Source: a virus. Taken from it: DNA of 22,372 nucleotides. The stretch covers positions 1-22,372 of IMG/VR virus record IMGVR_UViG_3300030060_000955. One strand, given 5' to 3'. The translations under genes were made by a program, and so were the position numbers. Below are positions 1 through 19,638 of this stretch, piece by piece (within the stretch, counting starts at the first letter, position 1; each line of letters begins with the position of its first letter). A model generated the notes under the pieces. That model was not told the origin of the DNA, ran no database searches, and was given only the letters and a program-made list of their open reading frames with translations.

Positions 1-604
1 TAGTATTAGTTGTACCTGTATTACATTCATCGTGAAACAAGTATTGATAGTAAGTATCTGAATCTTTTTGTTGACCTATTAATACATCATGTTGTATAAT
101 ATCTAATGCACCATACCTAAAATCAAATGTAGAGTTTGTCCAAAGTATAACTTCAAAACTGTTATCAGTATTACTACGATTATACTCTCGCATATTATAC
201 CAACCAAAGACTGTCTTATCACTAAAGTTCTTGGCTAACATCTTAGATTGATTATCTCTGATGAGGTCAGTCCAAAATGGAAACAGTGTGTAATTGTATT
301 GTGGAAGTGGGTCAGGTGTATAATCACCACAGTAATTATTATAATTGACGTTACCTGTACCTAACCCAAAATGCAGACAGCCATTCGTAGCCATACGAGC
401 AGATGTAAATTGTTGATCGTAAAAGTTAAAGGTAAAATCTAAATTAAAAGCAGACGAAAGCTGATCGTCTCCTGAGTTTAGACTGGTGGTGTTTGATTCG
501 TTTGTAAGGTCTATTAAAGGTTGATTACCTTCAGGTATGTATTGACTAAATACATTAAGACTTAATAGACACGCTACTGCGTAGCATAAAATTCTTTTTT
601 GCAT
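1..604 (-). CDS. Secreted protein with nidogen-like (NIDO) domain features, partial
   Basis: Open from the ATG at 604 to the window edge (201 codons, C-terminus missing). Residues 1-20 are a signal peptide (MQKRILCYAVACLLSLNVFS, cleavage before Gln21). The mature part begins YIPEGNQPLIDL, then beta-strand segments FNLDFTFNFYDQQFTSARMA and TNGCLHFG. Next come LFPFWTDL (107-114), VFGWYNMREY (132-141), SFEVILWTNSTFDFRYGAL (149-167) and HDVLIGQQ (172-179). The order 'FPFWTD ... W.N...Y ... FEV.L...F.F.YG' is that of the extracellular NIDO domain found in nidogen and in bacterial surface proteins. The start overlaps the previous gene by 31 bases; a weak AAGG lies upstream. Role inferred: adhesion or cell-surface interaction. 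The match is by eye, not by search. Confidence 0.75.
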   Translation of the reverse strand, partial: MQKRILCYAVACLLSLNVFSQYIPEGNQPLIDLTNESNTTSLNSGDDQLSSAFNLDFTFNFYDQQFTSARMATNGCLHFGLGTGNVNYNNYCGDYTPDPLPQYNYTLFPFWTDLIRDNQSKMLAKNFSDKTVFGWYNMREYNRSNTDNSFEVILWTNSTFDFRYGALDIIQHDVLIGQQKDSDTYYQYLFHDECNTGTTNT

Positions 605-1665
605 TGCCTTTTAGTTTTAGTTTTTCTTGTATATATAACTTTAACTGCCCCAACAACATCTTTGTTAATCTTATCTCTGTTAGGGTTTCTATCGTGTGTG
701 CATTGCTGTATAAAAAGTTTTTCTTGCTCTTTAGCATCGGGTCTTTTAGATTTGTTTTCTGCCCAAGCAACTGTAGCTTCTTTACCTATCTTACCTTGGT
801 AAGGGCAAGGAGTACCAGCCATTTCCATAGCTTTAAATACTCTTGGGTCTTGACAAAGTATAGATACTGAAGCTACTTTCATACCGGTATCATAGAGATA
901 CTTGGAAAGTTTTAAGCGTTCACAGTTCTCGTCAGTCACAGTTGCTCCTGTAGAGAACCCAAATACTTGCCCTTGAAACGCACCAGACCGACCTACCGTA
1001 CATAAGTCTTGTGAATAAGACATTATAGATGGGGCAATAGCAGAAGCAGGAGGTGCTTTGCTTTTGACATTCTGATTAATTGTTTGGGTAGAGTTAGACT
1101 CATTAATGTTTCTGTTAGTATTATCAGACTTAGTATTATTTATATTTGTATTTGTGTTATCAGTCGTAACATTAGAGTCTGATGTAGATTGATTAATGTT
1201 TGTATTAGTATTTGTATTAGTATTATTACTTGTAGAATTACTTGTATTATTTACATTTTGATTTACTGTAGAATTTACAGTAGAGTTTGATGTAGATGTT
1301 GAAGTATTTATATTAGTATTAGTATTATTATTAGTATTAGTATTTGTAGAGGTAGAGGTATTAATGTTATTATTAGTTGATGTATTAACATTAGTATTAT
1401 TATTGGTCGAAGTATTAGTATTTGTATTTACATTAGTATTACTATTCGTATTAGTATTTGTATTAGTATTATTATTTGTATTATTATTAGTATTCGTATT
1501 AGTGGTTACTGTAGTATTGATAGTAGTCAAACCATTATCCTCACAATACTGCGTTCCAGATGTACAGTTTCCTGTTGGTTCTGCACTTAATGCAAACGAA
1601 ATACCAAACAAACTAATTAATATTAATGGTAAAAAAAAGTCTTGGTTTAACGACCTTCTTGTCAT
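574..1665 (-). CDS. Secreted protein with Asn/Thr repeat stalk and Cys-containing C-terminal domain (363 aa)
   Basis: Residues 1-28 form a typical signal peptide: basic MTRR start, hydrophobic FFLPLILISLFGISFALSA, then EP. A long tract at about 50-200 is composed almost wholly of Asn, Thr and Ser, like a flexible stalk. After APPASAIAPSIMSYSQD comes a compact domain with LCTVGRSGAFQGQVFGFSTG, ENCERLKLSKYLYD, GMKVASVSILCQDPRVFKAM and AGTPCPYQGKIG. That domain has six Cys (222, 248, 271, 287, 322, 355), consistent with disulfides outside the cytoplasm. I recall this C-terminal domain from many marine phages, without a known function. No enzyme motif is seen. Its 3' end overlaps the next gene by 31 bases in another frame. 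A cell-surface or virion-exposed role is inferred. Confidence 0.8.
   Translation of the reverse strand: MTRRSLNQDFFLPLILISLFGISFALSAEPTGNCTSGTQYCEDNGLTTINTTVTTNTNTNNNTNNNTNTNTNTNSNTNVNTNTNTSTNNNTNVNTSTNNNINTSTSTNTNTNNNTNTNINTSTSTSNSTVNSTVNQNVNNTSNSTSNNTNTNTNTNINQSTSDSNVTTDNTNTNINNTKSDNTNRNINESNSTQTINQNVKSKAPPASAIAPSIMSYSQDLCTVGRSGAFQGQVFGFSTGATVTDENCERLKLSKYLYDTGMKVASVSILCQDPRVFKAMEMAGTPCPYQGKIGKEATVAWAENKSKRPDAKEQEKLFIQQCTHDRNPNRDKINKDVVGAVKVIYTRKTKTKRQCKKEFYATQ
1066..1518 (-). repeat. AATACN-type short tandem repeats coding Asn-Thr tract
   Basis: The tract is built from hexanucleotide units that read AAT-ACN in frame (for example AATACTAATACAAATACT), mixed with AAT and AGT codons. Because the unit is six bases, gain or loss of units leaves the frame intact and only changes stalk length. 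Confidence 0.85.
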
Positions 1666-2042
1666 TTCTTTTCTCCTCCGGGTTTTTTCGAACTGTTAGT
1701 ATATAATCCAAACCATGCAGCACCAGCACCAACTACCACTGATATAAGTCCTGATTGTTGCATTGTTGGGTCTTGTAAATCCATAAACCAAAATGTAACA
1801 TAGTATAAAAGATACATGTAGATACTTAAAAAAGCTCTAGGTATTATCCTCCAACTGTCTACAGCTTGAGCTATAAATATTAATTTTTGATAAGGGTTAT
1901 CATTTTTTTCATCTTCTAACTCTCTTATCCTATCTTTTAATTCTGACTTTTCTTGTAGCAAAGCCATGAATTTATTAAGGTCTATCTCAACCTCGTTTCT
2001 GTCCATGTCGCCACTAAATCCACCCATCATATTCTGTTGCAT
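1662..2042 (-). CDS. Holin-like protein with coiled coil and two membrane spans (126 aa)
   Basis: The N-terminal 50 residues are charged, with a predicted coiled coil at 18-46 (LNKFMALLQEKSELKDRI). Two membrane spans follow: residues 67-87 (IPRAFLSIYMYLLYYVTFWF) and 97-115 (SGLISVVVGAGAAWFGLYT), then a basic tail SSKKPGGEKK. The two-span layout with a basic C-terminus is typical of class II holins, and the motif GAGAAWFGLY recalls proteins annotated as holins in marine phages. An AGAGGAT ribosome site sits just before the ATG. Its TGA stop overlaps the start of the secreted protein (ATGA), so the secreted gene is translated together with it. Either this protein or the previous one could be the holin, or one could be an antiholin. 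Confidence 0.6.
   Translation of the reverse strand: MQQNMMGGFSGDMDRNEVEIDLNKFMALLQEKSELKDRIRELEDEKNDNPYQKLIFIAQAVDSWRIIPRAFLSIYMYLLYYVTFWFMDLQDPTMQQSGLISVVVGAGAAWFGLYTNSSKKPGGEKK
1673..1679 (-). promoter_or_regulatory. Strong ribosome binding site inside the upstream gene
   Basis: GGAGGAG on the minus strand lies 7 bases before the ATG at 1665, within the codons for the GGEK tail of the holin-like protein. It fixes the start of the secreted Asn/Thr-repeat protein and shows that gene is translated strongly despite the ATGA overlap. Confidence 0.8.
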
Positions 2043-2051
2043 AATATCCTC

Positions 2052-2483
2052 TTACTTTTTAACTAAGCTACCACCAAAATACATACCGATAATAGCTGAT
2101 ACAAGGTTTGTATCTAATTGTGTTATTACCAAACCTTGAAAAGTTATCCATTCAAATACTTCTCTATCGTCTGTAAAGAATAAAAAGCCCGGTTGAAATA
2201 ATGTATAGCCAACTGTCACATCTACATCAGGATAATATACTGCTACAAGTTTAGGAAGTATAACAATTGCAAAGATAGATGAGAGTGCAATGATACGTCT
2301 TGTCCATTGAAAGCCCACATTCTCTACATTTCTTGCAGACTCTACAGCTTTTAATTGGAACTCGCCACGAGTAATCAACATCTTTTGCTCATCTTGTTTA
2401 GCCTTCATACGTTGAGACCATAGACTTAACATACTACTAATTAAAGTAGAACCGAGCATTGTTATAATTTCAAAAGGGAACAT
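2052..2483 (-). CDS. Holin-like membrane protein (143 aa)
   Basis: Three hydrophobic segments are visible: residues 3-22 (FEIITMLGSTLISSMLSLW), 64-84 (IIALSSIFAIVILPKLVAVYY) and about 128-141 (SAIIGMYFGGSLV). They are joined by a charged region (WSQRMKAKQDEQ) and an aromatic stretch (YTLFQPGFLFFTDD). The short length, several membrane spans and position among late genes fit a holin, which opens the inner membrane at lysis. A match to a named holin family is not evident by eye. The start is set by the one-base gap after the 78-residue gene. Alternative: a virion membrane-interaction protein. Confidence 0.55.
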   Translation of the reverse strand: MFPFEIITMLGSTLISSMLSLWSQRMKAKQDEQKMLITRGEFQLKAVESARNVENVGFQWTRRIIALSSIFAIVILPKLVAVYYPDVDVTVGYTLFQPGFLFFTDDREVFEWITFQGLVITQLDTNLVSAIIGMYFGGSLVKK

Positions 2484-2484
2484 A

Positions 2485-2721
2485 TTATTTATCCAGTGTT
2501 AAAGTTGTTTCAAGTAAATCGTTTATAGAATCTAATAAATACTCTGGTACATCTTTACCAAGTATATCATCTTCGTTGTATGCAACCATGTAAGACTCTA
2601 TAAGGTCTTCATACAATGGTCTAAATTCTTCTCGTTTTATCCAAGGCTCGTTACAAATTGTACGAGCTTTGCAATCTATACGATAAGCTTTGTCTAATTG
2701 TTTCTCTGTGTAAAGTAGCAT
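2485..2721 (-). CDS. Small acidic hypothetical protein (78 aa)
   Basis: A 78-residue, acidic, helical protein. The first half reads YTEKQLDKAYRIDCKARTIC and is followed by EEFRPLYEDLIESYMVAYNEDD; the C-terminus is a Leu/Asp-rich helix (LLDSINDLLETTLTLD). Two Cys lie at positions 18 and 23. There is no membrane segment. Its ATG overlaps the stop of the lysozyme-bearing gene (TAATG), and the next gene follows after one base, so it is tightly co-expressed with the ejection and membrane genes. I recall similar proteins between lysis genes in marine phages but know of no function. A regulator or antiholin-like partner is conceivable; the sequence does not show it. Confidence 0.6.
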   Translation of the reverse strand: MLLYTEKQLDKAYRIDCKARTICNEPWIKREEFRPLYEDLIESYMVAYNEDDILGKDVPEYLLDSINDLLETTLTLDK

Positions 2722-5700
2722 TAGTCAATCATATTGAATAGTTTATTAGCCATATTTATTCTTCTATCTAAATGTGGAACTGAAGGTTTTTCCCAGATAT
2801 TACTAAAATCTACTGCAATGTCTTCTGCAGATTTTTCATTAAATGATTTTTGTAATGTGTTAGCATTACCTCCACCAATTTCTCTACCTGTTTGAATAGT
2901 ATCGTGCATATATTCTAATTGTGCAGCCATATTATTTATTTTATCTTCTTCAAATCCTCGTTCAGACAGCCAAGCATTATAATCATTCCTTTTATTATCT
3001 AATTGAAACAAACCAAAACCCTCTCCATTTATTTGTTTTTGTTTTGGGTCATACGTATAACCAGTTTCAACCCCAATGTTTGCAATAATACCAGCCCTAG
3101 CTTCTTTACTGTAACCCTTGCCTTTTAAATAAGTATTTATTTCTTGCATTCGTGCTTGAGATTCATCTCCACCATTACTAAAACCTAACCTACTCATCTG
3201 CTCTTGGTAAGGTTCACCAGTGTACGGATTAATTCTATCTGCTGGGTTTTCTTTAGTAAAAGGTACGTTGTCTTCTCCTTTTATTAGACCACCTTTAGCT
3301 TGTTGTTGCCTTATAAATTTTTTAGGATTTTTTAAAATATTTACAACTTCTCTGTCTTCTTCACTTAAATTATCTTCATATTGTAATAATGGTAATACAC
3401 TTAATTGATTATATAATTTTTTATAACTTCTTTTAAATTGTTGATAACTAACGCCCGTATAATCAGATGCATTATATAAAGCTCTTATTTGTCCATCGGT
3501 TAAACGAATAGGCTGAAAATTATTATCATAAGATGACAACCCTTTTCTTTCTATAGAACCTATACCTGTACCATTTACATTTTTAATAGACTTTTTAATG
3601 TCTTTGGTGGTTACTCCTAAAATTCTAGCTCCTTTTATAGCTCTGTTTAAAGTCACGTAATCCCTATAATATGCTCTATTAGCTCGTAAATAACTTTCTA
3701 ATACATCCTCAATTGTTTCTATTTTTGATATATCTAATAAGTCTTGAGTATTTTCGTAATTTTCATTAAATTCTTTTATTTTAAAAAATAAATTTCTTTT
3801 TATATTATCAGTATTAACAGAAGTATAATTTAAACCTGTTAATTTACCTACAAATTCGTCTTCTGCTTCTTCTATAGATAATTCTCCCTCTCTTAACTCT
3901 CTAGTATATTTAGCTCCCTCTTTTAAAAATCTTGGTATTAAAACTTCACCTATGTATTTACTATTTGCAAAAGTATTTTCTATTGCAGTGTTTTGAGGAT
4001 TAGTTCCGGGAATAGGATTACCATTTTCATCTTTACCTAAAAATGCTCTTGCTAATCTGTCTGTAAATAATGGTTGGTCAATAAAAGGTTGAACAAATGT
4101 TTTTAAAGATTCAGTAGTTGCATTAGCAATTTTATCTGAAACAGTATCTAAAGAAGATTCTGGATCAAATATTTCATCCATAAAAGAATTATATACATTT
4201 AAAATTGGAGCATTGGGATCAGAAAAACTTAAATCTACAAATGCTATATTTCCAAATTTATCTCTCTTATAACCTATAGTTCCATTTTTTGACCAATAAG
4301 GCAAAGCAACATCTTTTATTGCTTGTTCTTCTTCATCACTAACACCAAAAGCATATTTACTATATCTATTAATACCTTCACTACCTAAATAACCAACAGC
4401 CATTTGACTAGATAATCTTTGATATCCTCTTTCAATTAATTCTGGGTTATTTGATCTAATTTCTTGCATACCTCTTGTTAAAGTATGATAATTGTTTCTC
4501 CATCTTTCTGCAAAGAAAGAATAAAAATTACCAAATATAGGTATTTTTCTTAACTCTCTAGCACCTAAAGGAACTAAATTATAAGTAGGAAACGTATTTC
4601 TAATAATAGTAGCTGCTTCTTTTTCTAATTCGTCTATACTTCTATTAGGAAAAGCTTTTTTAAGAATATTTAATTCTTTTTGAAAAGCAGCTATCCTCCA
4701 TATATCATCTTCTGCAACATAAGTTTTATTAAAAGTATCTGTTACTTTATTAAATAATCTTTTAGAACTACCATATGCTTGACTAGCAAATGCTCTGTCT
4801 AAACTTTTTACCCAATTAGCATCTGTTACATTTTCATTTATTAATCTTTTAAATTCACCCACTCTAACATTTTGATTTACAATACCAAGATTTTGATATT
4901 TAATATATAAATCTTGTAAAGCTTTATCTTTATTTGGAGTTCTAGTGTATAGTTCATTAGTTAAAGTTTTAAAAGAATCTCTTGTTTCTTTACTAAAAGG
5001 ATTTAATCCATTTTGTGCCATAATAATACCACCGCCAATAGTATTACGAGCATGAGTTGTAAAACTATACACAGTTGCTACTGCTTGTCCTATACCTTTT
5101 AAAGCTAAAAGAGGAGATATAAGTTTTTCAAAAGACGATGTAGAAGTTTGTTCAAAAAATTTAGCTATTTCTTTAGTTGTTCTCATTCCATTCAAAGGAC
5201 CAAACTGCTGTCCATTTATGGTAGCAGCAACCCTTGTTCTAGTGGTTGGACTTACTCCTTCTTTAAAAAACCACTTACCGTCTCCTTTAGTGGCTAAATC
5301 ATCATACATTTTTAAATCAGATAAATATTTACCAAGAGTTTCTATAGTAGTAAAAACAGTTTTTCCTATATCTTCAGTTTTTCTTTCTCCAAAAAACTTT
5401 CTTAAAGGTTCATCTATTTCTTTTCTAGTTTGAAATAAAATATCTGCTTTTTTAAAACCATAAACCTTATCTAAATAAAAATCTATATTTTTTGTATTAT
5501 CTAATAAACCATCTACAATTTCTCTAGCTTCGATACGAGCATTATCTAAACTTAATTTTGCAGTATCATCAAATAAAGAGCCTTGAACAGATTTACTAGC
5601 TAGTTTTTCAGCTATACTTTCTACAGCTCCTTCTATAACATCTTCACTTGGTTTATAACTTGGATTTTCAAAGTATTCATAACTTTTTCTTAAATATTTA

Positions 5701-7235
5701 CCTATATTTTTTTGAATAACAAATTTTAAATCTTCAGGTATATTTTTTTGCTCTAATAATAATCTACTTAAATCATCAATAGTATCTCTAGTTCTTACAG
5801 CGACATCTTGCAAACCTTTAGGTAAGTTATTTAAAGATATTTCTTTAGATAAATAATCTTCTAACATTTTAGTAACTTGAGGAGCACTAAATTCACCCTC
5901 TTTGACAAGCTGTTTAGATTGGTATGTTAAATCATCTAATAAATTTTTTGCTTGTTTTTCAAATCCAACTTTAGCTAGTTCACCATCTAAAATAATATTA
6001 TGCATTTCTGAACTATAATATCCTCGAGTAGTAAAATATCTTCTTCTTAAATTTCTAATTGTATTTAAAATATCTGTAGTAGTTTTTTTAATTTTACCAC
6101 CTTCTCTTGGAATAGGAACAAACACATCATCGTCTAATCTATCTTCAATTTTACTAGGAGTAAAAGGTTTTATTTTTTCTTTAAATGGAGCTAGTGTTTT
6201 CTTAAAAGTTTCTTTTACTTCTGGATTATCTTTTATTCTTTTTAATACTTTACTCAAACCATCTTTAGTAAGTGATGCAGTTTTAAGAGCTCCTCCTACG
6301 ATTCCGGTAAAAACTCCACCATCTAACAATAATGTTAGTCTTCTTTGAGCAGCACTACTATCTTCATCAGCATCTAAATATTCAAAAAAATCTCCTATAA
6401 AATTATCATCAAGTTCATTTGTTTCTAATTTTTCATTTATAAAACTAGCAACAATAAACATTTCAGGATCATCTGCAAAAACAAGTTGTGAGGATAATTC
6501 AGCAGCAGTTAAATCTTTAGCTAATTTAATTTTTTTACTTCGTAAAACTTTTTTATTATCTATTTTTTTACCTGTTTGTTTTACTACATCATCAACATTT
6601 GAACCTAGTGCTTTTCTAAACTTACCCATTCCAATAGCAAAAGGAACAATATCTGTTGCAAGTTTGCCAACAATTCCTTCAGGTTCTTGAATAATATTAC
6701 CATCATAAATATCAGGACCTACTATTGGTTTTAATACAGTAGAAACACCTTTATCTATATTATCATTTCTTTTTTTATTAATTTGATTAACTAATTCATT
6801 ATATGATATATTTTTATCTTGAGCCATTTTTTCTAAAATTTCTTTTTGCTCAAATGTATTCAAACTAGAACTTATATCTCCTACTAATTTAGCACTGCCT
6901 GTAATTAGCTCATTAACAATTCCACCCATAGTCCTTCGATAATTTTTAAAAGGCATATTATTACCTATCCAATCTTTATAAGTTGGTTCAAATTGTTTTT
7001 TATAAAAATCAGGGTCTGATTCTAATGGATCAACTGGACGTTGAGGAGATGTAATATTTCTTATATCATCACTCAAAGGCTTTGCAGAATCTTTTGTAGC
7101 TATATCTACAAACTCTGCAAAACCAAATTGTTTTTTATAAGAAGGTGTAGTATTGTAAAGTTTTTTTAATTCTTCTAAATCGTTTACATTTTCTACGTTA
7201 TTTTCATACTTGTATTGTTCGTACAGTGAAGGCAT
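2721..7235 (-). CDS. Giant internal virion (ejection) protein with C-terminal lysozyme-like domain (1504 aa)
   Basis: A very large helical protein with several hydrophobic stretches, such as LISPLLALKGIGQAVATVYS and LLLDGGVFTGIVGGALKTA. Long charged regions lie between about 350 and 700. Near residue 1314 a Gly-Gly linker (KGGLIKGEDNVPFTKENPAD) leads into a C-terminal domain at about 1360-1504. The motif IIANIGVETGYTYDP, with probable catalytic Glu1390, followed by GEGFGLFQLD, matches the Phage_lysozyme2 (phage tail lysozyme, PF18013) type. In T7 the ejection protein gp16 carries its wall-cleaving domain at the N-terminus; here it is at the C-terminus. No Shine-Dalgarno sequence lies before the ATG; the upstream bases are only A and T. 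Its TAA stop overlaps the next ATG. Role: ejection and local wall digestion during DNA entry, inferred. Confidence 0.8.
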   Translation of the reverse strand: MPSLYEQYKYENNVENVNDLEELKKLYNTTPSYKKQFGFAEFVDIATKDSAKPLSDDIRNITSPQRPVDPLESDPDFYKKQFEPTYKDWIGNNMPFKNYRRTMGGIVNELITGSAKLVGDISSSLNTFEQKEILEKMAQDKNISYNELVNQINKKRNDNIDKGVSTVLKPIVGPDIYDGNIIQEPEGIVGKLATDIVPFAIGMGKFRKALGSNVDDVVKQTGKKIDNKKVLRSKKIKLAKDLTAAELSSQLVFADDPEMFIVASFINEKLETNELDDNFIGDFFEYLDADEDSSAAQRRLTLLLDGGVFTGIVGGALKTASLTKDGLSKVLKRIKDNPEVKETFKKTLAPFKEKIKPFTPSKIEDRLDDDVFVPIPREGGKIKKTTTDILNTIRNLRRRYFTTRGYYSSEMHNIILDGELAKVGFEKQAKNLLDDLTYQSKQLVKEGEFSAPQVTKMLEDYLSKEISLNNLPKGLQDVAVRTRDTIDDLSRLLLEQKNIPEDLKFVIQKNIGKYLRKSYEYFENPSYKPSEDVIEGAVESIAEKLASKSVQGSLFDDTAKLSLDNARIEAREIVDGLLDNTKNIDFYLDKVYGFKKADILFQTRKEIDEPLRKFFGERKTEDIGKTVFTTIETLGKYLSDLKMYDDLATKGDGKWFFKEGVSPTTRTRVAATINGQQFGPLNGMRTTKEIAKFFEQTSTSSFEKLISPLLALKGIGQAVATVYSFTTHARNTIGGGIIMAQNGLNPFSKETRDSFKTLTNELYTRTPNKDKALQDLYIKYQNLGIVNQNVRVGEFKRLINENVTDANWVKSLDRAFASQAYGSSKRLFNKVTDTFNKTYVAEDDIWRIAAFQKELNILKKAFPNRSIDELEKEAATIIRNTFPTYNLVPLGARELRKIPIFGNFYSFFAERWRNNYHTLTRGMQEIRSNNPELIERGYQRLSSQMAVGYLGSEGINRYSKYAFGVSDEEEQAIKDVALPYWSKNGTIGYKRDKFGNIAFVDLSFSDPNAPILNVYNSFMDEIFDPESSLDTVSDKIANATTESLKTFVQPFIDQPLFTDRLARAFLGKDENGNPIPGTNPQNTAIENTFANSKYIGEVLIPRFLKEGAKYTRELREGELSIEEAEDEFVGKLTGLNYTSVNTDNIKRNLFFKIKEFNENYENTQDLLDISKIETIEDVLESYLRANRAYYRDYVTLNRAIKGARILGVTTKDIKKSIKNVNGTGIGSIERKGLSSYDNNFQPIRLTDGQIRALYNASDYTGVSYQQFKRSYKKLYNQLSVLPLLQYEDNLSEEDREVVNILKNPKKFIRQQQAKGGLIKGEDNVPFTKENPADRINPYTGEPYQEQMSRLGFSNGGDESQARMQEINTYLKGKGYSKEARAGIIANIGVETGYTYDPKQKQINGEGFGLFQLDNKRNDYNAWLSERGFEEDKINNMAAQLEYMHDTIQTGREIGGGNANTLQKSFNEKSAEDIAVDFSNIWEKPSVPHLDRRINMANKLFNMID

Positions 7236-13045: not shown

Positions 13046-13612
13046 CTATTCACTCCATGCTTGAGTTAAATCATAATTATAAGTTGGGTGGTCTGCACCT
13101 ACTCCTATCATTGGTGTTTCTGCAGAACCTCCTAAGTAATAAACTTCTAGATTGTTACTATTCCAATAGTCTCCACCAATTCTACATCTAATTTGTAAAG
13201 TATCTGCATCTTGAACAGTCATTGTAGGGTAAGTTCCATCTCCTGAACCACCACCATTAAAACTTGGGTGTCCTCTGTGAATAACTTCTCGTATTTTTGT
13301 AACAGTTGCATGTATCCCACTACTACCATTATCGTATCTTCTTTGGATAACCCACTCTTTCCAGTTATTACCCCAATAGTAAGTACCCCAATTATGAGAA
13401 GCAATAAAGTGAGTTGTAAATCTAGTATCAAAACCACTTCTTACATCTGCTGTGCTAGTAGGTACAGTTACCGTATCTTGAACATCTACAGGTAGATAAA
13501 AATCAAACTGCATTGCTCCACCATTAGAACCATCATGTCCACCATTACTAGCATATGTGTTTGATTGAGCACATGCTATCATTATCCCACCATTTCCACC
13601 TATTAATGCCAT
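13046..13612 (-). CDS. Fibre-associated paralogue C (188 aa), putative receptor-binding protein
   Basis: Third member of the tandem set, starting MALIGGNGGI, identical to paralogue B in the first six residues. Shared landmarks are WGTYYWG (75-81), MTVQDADTLQIRCRI (131-145), DYWNSNNLEV (148-157) and YYLGG (158-162). A Gly/Asn-rich segment at 22-33 and another at 119-126 are unique to this copy. No clear Shine-Dalgarno sequence lies upstream of the ATG, unlike copies A and B, so translation may depend on ribosomes finishing copy B 6 bases away. The role is inferred from the fibre context as for its relatives. Confidence 0.7.
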   Translation of the reverse strand: MALIGGNGGIMIACAQSNTYASNGGHDGSNGGAMQFDFYLPVDVQDTVTVPTSTADVRSGFDTRFTTHFIASHNWGTYYWGNNWKEWVIQRRYDNGSSGIHATVTKIREVIHRGHPSFNGGGSGDGTYPTMTVQDADTLQIRCRIGGDYWNSNNLEVYYLGGSAETPMIGVGADHPTYNYDLTQAWSE

Positions 13613-13618
13613 ATTAAG

Positions 13619-14200
13619 TTACACCCAAAATGTTTGATAATATCTATCGTCATAATCTGCACCTCTACTACCAAGTCCTGAAGGTGCTCCTGAATTTCTA
13701 CCAACAAAAGTAACATCAGTACCACCACCTAAATAATATACTTTAACTTCGTTTGCTGTAAAATAATCTTTGTCTTGTCTGACTCTTAATTTACCTGCTG
13801 CATTATCTTGAACTGTTAAAGTAAAATCGCTTGATGAATCAAAACTACTATAGTTATCTCCAACCTGTTCACTTAACTGCATAATATATCCACTTGAACT
13901 AGCATTTGGATTTCTAAAATAAATATATTCTCTATAAACTTGTCCGTAATAATAAGAACCTACAGCATGTATTCCTAGTTTTATAGCACACCCAGAAGTT
14001 GTAGTTGGGTGTGTGGCTGCATGTAAATACACAGGGTCTTGAGTGTAGTTAGTTCCACTTGTAGGTTTGGATGTTTGTAATGAATCAATATTAGTTATTA
14101 TAGGAACTACAAAGTCCATTTGTTTTGCAACGTTATCAGTATTTTCTGCTGAACTAAAAGCTGCTATAATTGGTCCTTTAAATCCACCTATTAATGCCAT
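13619..14200 (-). CDS. Fibre-associated paralogue B (193 aa), putative receptor-binding protein
   Basis: Second member of the tandem set, starting MALIGGFKGP. It keeps the landmarks of its neighbours: GSYYYGQ (residues 81-87), LTVQDNAAGKLRVRQ (128-142), DYFTANEVKV (145-154) and YYLGG (155-159), then a variable C-terminal tail rich in Gly, Asp and Tyr. The middle region (40-75) is unlike the other two copies. A well placed AGGAG ribosome site supports the start. The conserved framework with divergent middle and tail fits proteins of one fold that bind different partners or ligands. Inferred role: fibre tip or receptor-binding protein; no catalytic motif seen. Confidence 0.7.
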   Translation of the reverse strand: MALIGGFKGPIIAAFSSAENTDNVAKQMDFVVPIITNIDSLQTSKPTSGTNYTQDPVYLHAATHPTTTSGCAIKLGIHAVGSYYYGQVYREYIYFRNPNASSSGYIMQLSEQVGDNYSSFDSSSDFTLTVQDNAAGKLRVRQDKDYFTANEVKVYYLGGGTDVTFVGRNSGAPSGLGSRGADYDDRYYQTFWV

Positions 14201-14209
14201 GCTATACTC

Positions 14210-14800
14210 CTATTTCCAATCATCGTCTTGTCCATATCTAGAATCATAAGTTAAGTTTCCAATGTATGGAACTCCACCACCACCATTAATAATATGCATT
14301 TCAAAGTGGTTACTGTTCCAATAATCAGGTTCTCCACCACCACCAACATTTAATCTAAATTCTCCTGTTGCAGTATCTGCAGAAGTAATTGCAGGATATG
14401 TATCTCCTGTGTTCCAGCCCGAATGTACTCTTGTATGTACAGACCAGACTGTTGTAATTTTTACTCTATTGGCTGGACTTGCTTCTCCGGTGTAATGACT
14501 TTGAATATTAAACATTCTAGCAGTTTTACCTTCGTAGTAAGTACCGTACTCAGCAACTAAAATTTGACATGCATTAGCTAAGTTACTTGAATTATAAATA
14601 GTATCATCAGCATCTTTACCTGATTGAGCTGCTGTTAGTGTAGCATTAGGCATTACTGAACTTGCATTAGAAAAACAAGGTATTTTAAAATTTACATAAA
14701 TTTCACCAGCATCATTTACAACAGTAACATCACTTGCAGCTTGATGAGTTTGACCATAGCCTACCATTTGCCCATTATTACCACCACCATAAAGAGACAT
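14210..14800 (-). CDS. Fibre-associated paralogue A (196 aa), putative receptor-binding protein
   Basis: First of three tandem related proteins. It starts MSLYGGGNNG, has a central YGTYYEG motif (residues 85-91), then DYWNSNHFEM (159-168) and a Gly-rich turn GGGGVPYIG (173-181), followed by a Tyr/Asp-rich tail. The composition (Gly, Asn, Thr, Tyr, Trp) is that of a beta-structured surface protein; no signal peptide is present. A GAGGAAG Shine-Dalgarno sequence overlaps the end of the fibre gene one base upstream. Gene position directly after the fibre gene suggests a fibre tip, adaptor or receptor-binding subunit. I do not recognise a named family, so this role is inferred. It is closest to paralogue C in its C-terminal half. 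Confidence 0.7.
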   Translation of the reverse strand: MSLYGGGNNGQMVGYGQTHQAASDVTVVNDAGEIYVNFKIPCFSNASSVMPNATLTAAQSGKDADDTIYNSSNLANACQILVAEYGTYYEGKTARMFNIQSHYTGEASPANRVKITTVWSVHTRVHSGWNTGDTYPAITSADTATGEFRLNVGGGGEPDYWNSNHFEMHIINGGGGVPYIGNLTYDSRYGQDDDWK

Positions 14801-14801
14801 A

Positions 14802-17800
14802 CTAAACTTCCTCTAATTTAAACTTGTATTGTTTGCCTGTTTTTCTATTTATAATAAATAAATCTTCAGCACCCTCTTGAATTGTCCAAGAGCCTTTAGT
14901 GTTGTCTACTTCGTTAGCATCGCCTTGTTCATTAGATAACTGTAAGTCATTGGTATAAATGTTTCTCCAACGAGTTGCTGTAGCTCCTAAGTCGTAAGTA
15001 TTGTTTGCACCCGGAAGTAAGTGTCCGTTGTTATCAAGAACAAGTCTTTCTGTTCCAGCAGTATCAAATCTAATTTTATCCTCATCACTGCTTTCTTCTA
15101 CTTGAATTTTTGTATCACCATCAGCATCAGATGTAGCTCCTCCACCTCCAGCATCCTCCCAAGCTACTCCACTTCCTGTTGAAGTAAGCACTTGTCCGTC
15201 TGAACCTTGAGCACCATTAACTTTAAAGTTTTCACCGTCTATAGTTGTTGCATCAACTAGCCCTGCTACAGTTACTGTGTTAGCAGTTAAAGTTATTAAG
15301 TCTGTATCAGATGTATGACCAATAGTAGTACCATTAATAATTACATTATCAACTGTAAGAGTTGTAAGTGTACCAAGACTTGTAATGTTTGATTGTGCTG
15401 CACCTGTTACTGTTGCTGCAGTTCCTGATACATTACCTGTTACATTTGCTATAAGTGTACCGACTGCGTATCCTGTTGCTCCTGTATTAACTGTAGTACT
15501 TGGTGCTGTTTGAGAATCTACAAATAATGCAAATGTATTATCAGTAGATGCATCAAAATACAAACCAGCATATTTAGTTGTGCTAGATTCTACATATTTA
15601 CCATAGAACCCAAAGTCTGTAGAGTTACCACTGTTATTTTGTGATAGAGCTTGGAAGTTAGAATTAGATAGTAACGAACCTGTTTGTGTTGTACTACCTG
15701 TGACTACTAAGTTTCCACTAACTGTTAAGTCGTTAGCAATGGTTACATCGTTAGATAGTTTATCACCTGTAACTTGGTCGTTTGCAATATGAGCTGTATC
15801 AATACTACCGTCTGCTATTTGAGCAGAATCAATCGCATCGTCTGCTATCATAGAATTTACAATAACATCACTACCAATTACAAAGTCTAATGTATTATCA
15901 CTATCATCATAAGTTACTGCTATTCCAGTTTCTGTGTTTGAACTAACCATAGCACCAACTGTATCTGAAATAGTTTCAGCAAGTGTTGTACCATTAACTG
16001 TTATAGCATCAGCTTCAAGTGTACCATCAATATCAACATTACCTGAAATATCTAAAGTAGCAGCAGTTAAAGAACCTCCAATAGTTAAATTACCTGAACT
16101 AGGATTATAAGTAAATCCTGTATCAGTTTCTAATCCTTGACTTCCAGTAGCACCATCAACAAACACAGGGAATATAGTTTCGTCTGTACTGTTATTAGCT
16201 GATACTGTTACAGAAGTTGCAACTGCTGCTGTACCTGTAATATCACTTGAAGTTAAAGCAATTGTACCTGTTGTCGCTGGTAAAGTTGCTGTAATATTAC
16301 CACTAAATGCTGAGTGAGCAGGTGCTTGTAATCTTGCATAGTGAGCATTAGATGATTCACAATAAAAATCTATATATGATTGTGTACCACCATTTTTAAT
16401 TGCTATAGCACCTTGAGATATAGAAACACCATTTGTAGAACCACCAGAAATATCTAATGTTCCTGCAACATCTCCGTTACCTGAAATATCTAATGTAGCA
16501 GCATCAAGTTCTCCAGAGATTGTGATGTTTCTACCACCAGTAATATCTTTATTAGAGTCTGTAATAATAGCTTTACTTGCTATAACTGTACCATTTGTGA
16601 TACCATCAATAAGATTTATATCTGCTGCACTTGCTGTTACACCATCAAGAATGTTTAACTCTGCAGCAGTACTTGTAACACCGTCAAGGATATTAAGTTC
16701 TGCAGCAGTAGACGTTACACCATCTAAAATATTTAGTTCGGCTGCTGTTGATGTAACTGCTGTACTGTTAATAGATAAAGCATCTGTTTCTAGTGTTCCG
16801 TCTATATCTACATTTCCAGATATATCTAAACTAGGAGCAACAATTTCATGTGAAAATACAAAGTTATCATTAGAAGCACTCCAAGCTATTGATGCATCGT
16901 TTGAAGCATCTACTGCATCTTGTATAGTAATACCAGCACCATCTGCTGAAGCTGATGTATCTCCTGAACCTTTGTTAAGTGTTATATTTTTGTCTTCAAC
17001 ATCTAACGTTGCTGTAGATAAAGTAGTTGTACTACCGTTTACTGTTAAGTTTCCTGTAACTGTAACATTACCACCAACTGCTAAGTTACTAGCCATGTCA
17101 ACAGCACCATCAATATCTACAACATCAAGGTTTGTAGTTCCGTCTACATCAATATCACCGCTTACATCTAAAGAACCTGCATCAAGTTCACCTGTAAGTG
17201 TAATGTTTCTAAAGCTTCCAATGTCTTTATTAGAATCTACTACAACTGCTTTAGAAGCTGCTACAGTTCCTGCAGTAACTCCATCAATTGTTTCTAATTC
17301 TGCTTCAGATATATCAGCACTACCAATAACAAAGCTTGTACCTGTAATAGCTGTACCTGTAATTGCAGCAGCACTAGAGCCACCAATTATAGCACCATCA
17401 ACTGTACCACCATTAATGTCTGCAGTATCAGCTACCAAGCTGTCAATGTTTGCAGTACCATCAATAAATAAGTTTCTCCATTGTTGAGTAGAGCTTCCTA
17501 AATCATAAGTATCATCATCGTCTGGTATAATATTAGAATCAACATCAGCACCAAATACAACATTGTCAGTAGCTGCATCACCCATTGTGATTGTACCACC
17601 ATTAAAAGTTGTTGTACCTGTAACTGTAAGATTACCGCCTATACCAACATTGCCAGTAGTAGTAATAGAATCTATGTATGCATCTTTAAAATATAAAGAA
17701 CTGGTACCTATATCAATATCACTATCTGTAACAGGTACAATAGCACCATCGGCTATGTATAACTGTTGTACTGGACTACTAGATACTTGTACATAAAACT

Positions 17801-18023
17801 CAATGTAGTTATTTGTTGTATCAATTAATACTTTGTTATTGGGAGCTGTTTCTCCTGCATCTCCAATCAATCCTATAACTGGACCTTCAGCAGTAGTACC
17901 GTCATGTTTATGACCACCTGTATTGCTAAATGCACTTAAAAGTTGATTGTATTCATCATTAAATAGTGCAGCAGTTATCGTGTCTCCATCTACGAATGAA
18001 CTCTGTCTTATGTAACCTGCCAT
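14802..18023 (-). CDS. Repeat-rich tail fibre protein
   Basis: A 1073-residue fibrous protein rich in Thr, Ser, Asp and Gly. Residues 1-60 look like a virion-anchoring head (DGDTITAALFNDEYNQLLSAF, then GGHKHDGT). The shaft contains many short beta-helix-like repeats: LDISGNVDIDGTLE units, NLTVTGTTTF-type units, three exact copies of a TSTAAELNILDGV unit at residues 424-462, and DSAQIADGSIDTAHIAND at about 730-750. YDLG...WRN modules occur at about 102-120, 172-190 and 1009-1024. The C-terminal 65 residues form a distinct domain ending TGKQYKFKLEEV. An AGGAGAT Shine-Dalgarno sequence at the end of the nozzle gene supports the start. It is expected to form trimeric fibres that reach the host surface. 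The genes downstream encode likely tip or adaptor partners. Confidence 0.85.
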   Translation of the reverse strand: MAGYIRQSSFVDGDTITAALFNDEYNQLLSAFSNTGGHKHDGTTAEGPVIGLIGDAGETAPNNKVLIDTTNNYIEFYVQVSSSPVQQLYIADGAIVPVTDSDIDIGTSSLYFKDAYIDSITTTGNVGIGGNLTVTGTTTFNGGTITMGDAATDNVVFGADVDSNIIPDDDDTYDLGSSTQQWRNLFIDGTANIDSLVADTADINGGTVDGAIIGGSSAAAITGTAITGTSFVIGSADISEAELETIDGVTAGTVAASKAVVVDSNKDIGSFRNITLTGELDAGSLDVSGDIDVDGTTNLDVVDIDGAVDMASNLAVGGNVTVTGNLTVNGSTTTLSTATLDVEDKNITLNKGSGDTSASADGAGITIQDAVDASNDASIAWSASNDNFVFSHEIVAPSLDISGNVDIDGTLETDALSINSTAVTSTAAELNILDGVTSTAAELNILDGVTSTAAELNILDGVTASAADINLIDGITNGTVIASKAIITDSNKDITGGRNITISGELDAATLDISGNGDVAGTLDISGGSTNGVSISQGAIAIKNGGTQSYIDFYCESSNAHYARLQAPAHSAFSGNITATLPATTGTIALTSSDITGTAAVATSVTVSANNSTDETIFPVFVDGATGSQGLETDTGFTYNPSSGNLTIGGSLTAATLDISGNVDIDGTLEADAITVNGTTLAETISDTVGAMVSSNTETGIAVTYDDSDNTLDFVIGSDVIVNSMIADDAIDSAQIADGSIDTAHIANDQVTGDKLSNDVTIANDLTVSGNLVVTGSTTQTGSLLSNSNFQALSQNNSGNSTDFGFYGKYVESSTTKYAGLYFDASTDNTFALFVDSQTAPSTTVNTGATGYAVGTLIANVTGNVSGTAATVTGAAQSNITSLGTLTTLTVDNVIINGTTIGHTSDTDLITLTANTVTVAGLVDATTIDGENFKVNGAQGSDGQVLTSTGSGVAWEDAGGGGATSDADGDTKIQVEESSDEDKIRFDTAGTERLVLDNNGHLLPGANNTYDLGATATRWRNIYTNDLQLSNEQGDANEVDNTKGSWTIQEGAEDLFIINRKTGKQYKFKLEEV
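16599..16754 (-). repeat. 39-base tandem repeat in the fibre gene (three exact at protein level plus one degenerate)
   Basis: Three consecutive 39-base units (16716-16754, 16677-16715, 16638-16676) each encode TSTAAELNILDGV, followed by a degenerate fourth unit (TASAADINLIDGI). The protein copies are identical but the DNA copies differ at most synonymous positions: between the first two, 10 of 13 codons differ. Confidence 0.9.
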
Positions 18024-18027
18024 TTGT

Positions 18028-19638
18028 TTATCTCCTACCTGAAGGTATAAAATCTATATATAAACCATTTATTATATATGGTGCTTTTGTATCGTCTGAA
18101 ATTACTGTAAAATTATTACTTGTTCCACTTCCTTGTAATGGTATTCTTATCATTGGGGCTGCTGTACCTCCAAATACCGTTGCATTAAAAACAGCTTCTG
18201 CAAATATTGCAGGTGGATTAACTGTTCCAAAAGAAAAGTCACTTGCTGGTTGTGGAATATCTTGACTATTAAAATCATATTTAACTTGAAGTGCTGGAGT
18301 TACAATTCCTTCTGCTCTAACAGATACTCTAACATAGTGTAAAGTTTTTAAAGTTCCTAAGTCTCCATAGTCATAGTCTGGTGTGGCATATCTAGCAAGT
18401 ATGTTAGACCCATTAAAGTCGTTACCTGAATCGTGTACAAGCACATAGCCATCAGTATCACCGTGAAAATATTTTTCAACACCATTGTTATCAAACCCAG
18501 CTCCTATACTGGTTACTTCTATTCCTCTTGTTTCTGACCACTCAAATCCGTTTGGTCTAAGTGTTCCTATAATTCCTTGTTGTTGTGCATTAATAACACT
18601 TGTATCAGTATAAAATAATCTGTACTGAGACTTTTCTCTAATAACGGTACTTGAAATTACATACTTATCAATGTTTTCTGCTAACTGTGTAATAATTGGT
18701 TGGATAGCTTTACTAACTGTACCCAACTCAACGTCTCCAATCCTTGCAGTACCAGCAACTGTTCTTAGTCCATCTGGTGCTAAAAAGATAAGGTCACCAC
18801 CTATTTCTTGGATGCTGTAGCCTGATAGACAACCAATGTTCTTTGCTACTGGAACTACCACCGGTGTACCGTTTATATCTTGTAGCTTAAATATACTGTT
18901 TCTACAAAATATAAAAAGTTCTTGACGGAAACTTCTAATACCTACTATCTGGTCTGATAAGGTTATTGAACCTGAACCACCACCACTAAAACTTGTCGGG
19001 TCTAATAAAGAACTATAGAATACTGTACTTAAATTATCTTCAACACCTGCTGCAACTAAACGCTTGTCATGTATTGTTACATGTTGAGCTTTCTTGGTAG
19101 ATGAATGTGTTGGGTCTATTGTTCCTGAAAAAAAAGTTCTAGTGTTAATGTTAGCACCAGTACCTTCCATTCTAAAATAATATATTAAATTATTTGCATC
19201 AGCAATCATTAACATACCATAATCGTATGTTGGTCCTTCAAACAACGCAAAACTTACTTGTCCTTGCGATGTTCTTGATAGTGTACTACGTCCTGTAAAA
19301 GTTGAGTAATTATCTCCACCAGAATCTACTGAACTTCTACTAACGTTTAACCAACTTGTACCATCTTGACTAAAAAATATTCCTGTCGATGCACAAGCTA
19401 TAACTCCATCACCGTAAGGTATAACTCCAAGAATAGTATCAGCACTACCACTTACTAACGCAGCACTACCAGCCCCTAATCTACTATAACCATTGACACG
19501 TCTATAACCACCTTTAACAGATACTTCAAAGTTTCTAAGTTCTGTAGCTACACCCGGAGTTTTAAGTAAGTCAATCTGATTAGAAGCTTTGACTAAACCA
19601 CCAGCAGATGCAACTGTATAAGGTTGTGATGCTGCCAT
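18028..19638 (-). CDS. Tail nozzle protein-like (T7 gp12 / tail tubular protein B type)
   Basis: A 536-residue beta-rich protein. Its N-terminus reads ASAGGLVKASNQIDLLKTP followed by ATELRNFEVSVKGGYRRVNG, a start typical of gp12-like nozzle or tail-hub proteins that present a beta-propeller body. The middle has repeated blade-like strands, for example VIPYGDGVIACASTGIFFS, YGMLMIADANNLIYYFR and KYFHGDTDGYVLVHDSG. The C-terminal region after about residue 430 is a separate beta domain. It is shorter than T7 gp12. It lies 3 bases after the adaptor gene and 4 bases before the fibre gene, so the three are surely co-expressed. The ring it forms would sit below the adaptor and hold the fibres. Assignment rests on context and recalled family resemblance; P22 gp10-like tail hub is the main alternative. 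Confidence 0.72.
   Translation of the reverse strand: MAASQPYTVASAGGLVKASNQIDLLKTPGVATELRNFEVSVKGGYRRVNGYSRLGAGSAALVSGSADTILGVIPYGDGVIACASTGIFFSQDGTSWLNVSRSSVDSGGDNYSTFTGRSTLSRTSQGQVSFALFEGPTYDYGMLMIADANNLIYYFRMEGTGANINTRTFFSGTIDPTHSSTKKAQHVTIHDKRLVAAGVEDNLSTVFYSSLLDPTSFSGGGSGSITLSDQIVGIRSFRQELFIFCRNSIFKLQDINGTPVVVPVAKNIGCLSGYSIQEIGGDLIFLAPDGLRTVAGTARIGDVELGTVSKAIQPIITQLAENIDKYVISSTVIREKSQYRLFYTDTSVINAQQQGIIGTLRPNGFEWSETRGIEVTSIGAGFDNNGVEKYFHGDTDGYVLVHDSGNDFNGSNILARYATPDYDYGDLGTLKTLHYVRVSVRAEGIVTPALQVKYDFNSQDIPQPASDFSFGTVNPPAIFAEAVFNATVFGGTAAPMIRIPLQGSGTSNNFTVISDDTKAPYIINGLYIDFIPSGRR

Follow-up and report, generated by a model that had tools for sequence, protein, structure and literature searches.

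An exported phage protein with a NIDO-homologous head beside the lysis genes of marine phages

The gene cut off at the start of the analysed DNA, here called gene B, encodes an exported phage protein whose head, as judged by comparison of sequence profiles, is a distant homologue of the nidogen-like (NIDO) domain, and this homology is secure. The protein carries an export signal, belongs to a cassette with an exported partner (A) and a small coiled-coil protein (C), bears in related phages an unrelated head in place of the NIDO domain, and is encoded next to lysis genes. We propose, with a probability of roughly 0.4, that B is the exported envelope-binding component of a marine-phage lysis module in which A and C take part.

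Results

The window, by which we mean the whole stretch of DNA analysed, covers bases 1-22,372 of a 25,032-base IMG/VR viral record, and since its first base is also the first base of the record, gene B is cut at the contig end and cannot be lengthened from its own record. The minus-strand frame opens with an ATG at 604 and stays open for 201 codons, as far as base 2; this 5' part of the gene (2..604) gives the first 201 residues, over which relatives are from 100% to about 70% identical. The signal peptide (MQKRILCYAVACLLSLNVFS, approximately residues 1-20, 545..604, minus strand), with a hydrophobic segment at residues 5-23, is kept across the relatives though its sequence varies. The NIDO-homologous region follows at approximately residues 42-192 (29..481, minus strand), as delimited by columns 21-171 of A1 in hhalign and by the HMM tests, and holds FPFWTD (approximately 108-113), GWYN (134-137), FEVILW (150-155) and FRYGAL (162-167) in the order in which the initial annotation had read them. 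From the sequence only, the signal peptide and the invariant cysteines point to an extracytoplasmic location.

Relatives of B were found in at least 566 matching stretches of IMG/VR, whereas tblastn with the NIDO fragment and with the full protein found no relative in 50,697 deposited phage genomes, and no relative of the phage NIDO turned up in the bacterial and archaeal genomes scanned. The protein has 653-666 aa in the closest full-length relatives and 619-801 aa over the family, and is laid out as signal peptide, NIDO region, Cys-rich part, acidic stalk, S/T-rich part and conserved C-terminus. One relative, L002, differs from the window over the first 201 residues by 16 synonymous and 1 non-synonymous codons; its B has a signal peptide at 1-20, the NIDO and Cys-rich parts at 21-265 with 8 cysteines, and an acidic stretch at 266-435 containing 71 D/E and 2 K/R. 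The cysteine count of B after the signal peptide is even. Mean pairwise identity is 81% for the NIDO region vs 48-59% for the acidic, S/T-rich and C-terminal parts, a contrast that is partly selected, and so biased, because the relatives were retrieved via the NIDO region. No lipobox occurs in the NIDO-type B or in most other B proteins and B is without a C-terminal membrane anchor; it is therefore not a classical o-spanin or u-spanin.

A Pfam scan was a check proposed by the initial annotation for the full protein. The B fragment matched NIDO (PF06119) as the sole family (E 0.0039), but with 17.7 bits it stayed under the curated cut-off of 25 bits, and the matches found in 20 of 25 relatives were weak too, so we term B NIDO-homologous and not a member of the Pfam family. 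The scan of the full protein found no domain besides NIDO. The homology was then examined by two independent routes, bacterial-profile search and profile-profile comparison. Bacterial NIDO proteins were gathered with the Pfam model from about 600 bacterial genomes, and 29 of them were aligned into a profile that matched each of the 39 full-length, non-redundant relatives from phages with 48-60 bits (E of about 1e-12 when the database size is taken as 100,000), while not one of the 1,014 shuffled or reversed controls was matched. Phage and bacterial NIDO alignments compared by hhalign gave a probability of 98.5% and an E of 2.1e-15 over 142 columns, and in the reverse search the phage profile matched most bacterial NIDO loci, the best at 38 bits. 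Although the fragment by itself falls under the Pfam cut-off and its structural model, described below, is of moderate confidence and without a PDB match, a resemblance owed to chance or composition is hardly credible against such a separation of relatives from controls and such an hhalign value; the earlier reading of a phage-encoded exported protein resembling NIDO was thus borne out.

The AF2 model of the NIDO head, the other check that had been proposed, is beta-rich but of moderate confidence (pLDDT 64.5, pTM 0.70), and Foldseek found no match for it in the PDB. Given the moderate model and the absence of any solved NIDO structure from the results, this null speaks neither for nor against the NIDO fold. 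Against predicted viral proteins Foldseek returned one strong match, A0A6J5P7T5, and direct PDB sequence searches with the B fragment and with its profile gave noise only.

Gene A (574..1665, minus strand) encodes the exported partner, with a signal peptide of its own; it shares 31 bases with the start of B, and B lies directly downstream of it in 75 of 79 NIDO loci. Its product has a stretch rich in N, T and S (approximately 1021-1575, minus strand; 138 of 185 residues) and a conserved Cys domain (approximately 736-1020, minus strand) followed by a basic tail. The N/T/S-rich repeat is far longer in the NIDO phages than in the A proteins of cultured pelagiphages, and a hexamer-like DNA repeat is present within the gene in 33 copies at 1303-1503. 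Cultured phages that infect SAR11 and roseobacters carry the core of A; outside phages, the bacterial and archaeal scan matched only MAG contigs of scattered phyla, and these occurrences in MAGs of many phyla, even archaea (L317-L336), are most likely misbinned phage contigs. The succession of A, a B with signal peptide and acidic middle, and a small C protein recurs in HTVC115P, HTVC202P, Mosig (a T4-like myovirus), HTVC023P, HTVC033P and Baldr, the deposited start of the HTVC115P B having probably been annotated too late. The A-B-C cassette is thus shared by unrelated pelagiphages.

Protein C is small and forms a predicted coiled coil after an N-terminal hydrophobic segment, which is below the membrane-segment threshold used. 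Among loci with full flanks, a C-like gene lies nearby on the same strand in 26 of 30 NIDO loci and in 46 of the 47 remaining cassette loci; some NIDO loci have C encoded on the other strand. The two forms, C1 and C2, are homologous (hhalign 96.6%). A match to the Rz-like spanin family phrog_739 was weak (E 1.8e-5) and obtained with C1 only, and coiled coils attract false matches; tblastn of C1 against deposited phages found no relative. Near relatives have a gene for an IscU/NifU-like iron-sulfur scaffold between B and C (L002:8179-8580), just past what is the first base of the window, and iscU has been reported in genomes of HMO-2011-type phages (PMC9038755). Several NIDO phages (L030, L031, L054, L067) carry an Hsp20-like small heat-shock protein gene beside the cassette, downstream of C.

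In the non-NIDO B proteins the head yields a confident jelly-roll model (pLDDT 85.7) whose nearest solved folds are the Fbs1 sugar-binding domain (E 1.5e-9), CBM61 (E 5e-8), CBM22 and CBM4, with phage tailspike modules also among them; the predicted fold thus resembles that of known sugar-binding domains, in a head that is not of the window's type. By profile the two heads are unrelated (0.25%), whereas the A cores of phages with a NIDO head and of phages with a jelly-roll head reach up to 68-72% identity, in a comparison that excluded the L081 A-domain pairing, whose apparent further swaps came from a wrongly picked gene; non-homologous heads beside so similar an A indicate that the head of B has been swapped. 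The C-termini of the NIDO-type and one jelly-roll-type B are probably homologous, as judged from hhalign (53%, E 1.4e-4, unrelated controls all <4%) and blastp (34% over 65 aa, E 8e-5), while the other jelly-roll type shows a weak link.

Upstream of A the minus strand encodes a 126-aa membrane protein (1662..2042; phrog_10198, function not assigned), a 143-aa membrane protein of the lysis neighbourhood (2052..2483; phrog_38283, putative holin-like), a 78-aa protein that is a conserved neighbour (2485..2721) and a Phage_lysozyme2 domain (2730..3152) at the C-terminus of a 1504-aa virion protein (2721-7235). The general order in the NIDO phages is large virion protein, lysozyme (separate or fused), 78-aa protein, membrane proteins, A, B and C, and the placing of B at the end of a structural and lysis operon by the initial annotation agrees with its position after endolysin and membrane-protein genes in the relatives. 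No family tie was found that would confirm the 143-aa and 126-aa proteins, or a 157-aa one, as members of a holin family. Many relatives have a separate GH24 lysozyme gene (PF00959, above cut-off) between the virion gene and the lysis-side genes, and the muralytic domain appears exchanged at one place, fused Phage_lysozyme2 in the window vs a separate GH24 lysozyme gene in L003 (3449-3898).

Among the loci with full flanks, a recognised endolysin lies near the cassette in 15 of 30 NIDO loci and 15 of 47 others. HTVC033P has the order lysozyme-gp49-gp48-gp47-A-B-C and HTVC023P the order A-B-x-C-peptidase M15, and both CRP-207 and CRP-810 have their lysozyme two genes after A. Mosig and HTVC202P are exceptions, their cassettes having primase or terminase genes as neighbours instead of lysis genes. 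A claim that the NIDO phages lack any o-spanin was dropped when a relaxed filter found a 68-aa lipoprotein that the first lipoprotein filter had missed. Of the four near-complete relatives, two have a gene for a small lipoprotein elsewhere in the genome, so that these phages may still have a classical o-spanin. Some jelly-roll-type phages carry a gene for a 52-55-aa lipoprotein, a possible o-spanin candidate, either where A and B meet or immediately ahead of A (L176:4756-4914, L189, L195, L198).

The host is likely SAR11. The tail protein encoded at 18028-19638 shares 43% identity with its counterparts in pelagiphages HTVC103P and HTVC115P, those of HMO-2011 and HTVC033P being more distant relatives, and the G+C content of the window, 33.7%, resembles that of pelagiphages (PMC9038755). 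Directly after a 1073-aa tail-fibre-like protein, the minus strand at 13046-14800 encodes three proteins in tandem, each 188-196 aa long and alike at the start (MALIGG.../MSLYGG...), which look like paralogous fibre-tip or receptor-binding proteins. Just past the window the major capsid frame and that of an upstream gene are gapped by short N runs (L001 approximately 2371-2396 and 3630-3640; record approximately 22,370-22,395 and 23,630).

Discussion

We infer that B would be an envelope protein with disulfides, produced late in infection and exported by the Sec route, and that it probably acts on the host envelope at progeny release. Its exchangeable head, NIDO here and a sugar-binding-type jelly roll elsewhere, would bind a component of the host envelope, the long acidic stalk would cross the periplasm, and the conserved C-terminus would join B to A and/or C, the latter a coiled-coil protein resembling the inner-membrane spanin Rz. 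Assembled at lysis, the three proteins might help to breach or reorganise the outer membrane. A further step, which we hold doubtful, is that A-B-C constitutes an undescribed envelope-breaching system replacing the lipoprotein spanin, with C as the inner-membrane coiled coil, A as the exported Cys protein and B as a stalked, exchangeable head gripping the outer envelope without a lipid anchor.

Outer-membrane disruption and receptor masking are the leading candidate functions of B, and masking is the main rival to a role in opening the envelope. A B head that is exported to the cell surface, or released by lysis, could cover the phage's own receptor and spare progeny from adsorbing to debris or to infected cells, in a form of superinfection exclusion. 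An exported head of ligand-binding type, the late position at the lysis genes and the swapping of heads between phages all agree with this, and the loss of progeny to debris would presumably be costly in dilute seawater. However, the NIDO region is the best conserved part of B, even if the retrieval favours it, which is unlike a head tracking varied receptors, and masking leaves the link of B to A and C unexplained; we regard it as possible but rather doubtful.

A remodelling of the envelope during infection that is unrelated to lysis, for example for nutrient capture or for export with phage-encoded outer-membrane pores, would fit the cassettes that sit outside lysis modules in Mosig and HTVC202P, and curli CsgGF pores have been described in pelagimyophages (PMC9004378). 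We consider it unlikely, given that several independent phages place the cassette beside lysozyme and holin-like genes.

The initial annotation had suggested adhesion, to the host surface or between virions. Binding of a ligand or surface by B is plausible, since its relatives have at the same position a jelly-roll head that comes closest, among solved folds, to sugar-binding domains, but adhesion between virions found no support: the signal peptide, the even cysteine numbers after it and the lysis-gene neighbours leave no pointer to the virion, and the lysis setting favours an envelope or lysis role over adhesion as such. An adhesive protein displayed on the virion or the cell would match the occurrence of NIDO domains in large surface proteins and of the bacterial matches in long open frames, but it seems quite improbable with Sec signal peptides on both B and A and with lysis, not tail, genes as neighbours, and the three tandem proteins together with the 1073-aa protein (13046-18023) are presumably likelier adhesion proteins.

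The NIDO family is already known, and isolates with a deposited CBM-like B exist; in the literature searched we found no account of a B with a NIDO head, of A, B and C as a set or of the exchange of heads, and nothing relevant that linked nidogen or NIDO to phages or viruses. Spanins are not recognised in every phage of a Gram-negative host: Kongari et al. (PMC6139136) had none for 91 of the 677 such phages examined, and 20 of these 91 infect Prochlorococcus or Synechococcus. Situated next to lysis genes in abundant pelagiphages, the A-B-C set offers concrete candidates for a part in breaching the outer membrane, and a NIDO-homologous domain, usually tied to extracellular matrix proteins, is now placed in a large, so far uncultured group of marine phages.

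Among known systems, the spanins (Rz/Rz1 and u-spanins) share with the set described here the lysis neighbourhood of B, a putatively Rz-like layout of C, with its weak phrog_739 match, and possibly the logic of spanning the periplasm; B differs in not being a lipoprotein and in having more than ten times the size of Rz1, the mature form of which has 40 aa (PMC6139136). With the NIDO family (PF06119) B shares homology at the profile level over about 140 columns, the order of the motifs and a secreted, disulfide-containing setting, but single B sequences fall under the curated cut-off and are carried by contigs of lytic phages. The Llp protein of phage T5 is a small lipoprotein that masks the receptor; like proteins of this type B is an exported phage protein that could bind envelope components, but it is large and modular and has A and C as partners. 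The B proteins of cultured pelagiphages (HTVC033P gp45, deposited as a putative carbohydrate binding domain containing protein, HTVC115P gp53, HTVC202P gp25, Mosig_00201, HTVC023P gp46 and Baldr 003) have in common with the window's B the position after A, the signal peptide, the acidic middle and, in part of them, a related C-terminus, but their head is a CBM-like jelly roll and not NIDO.
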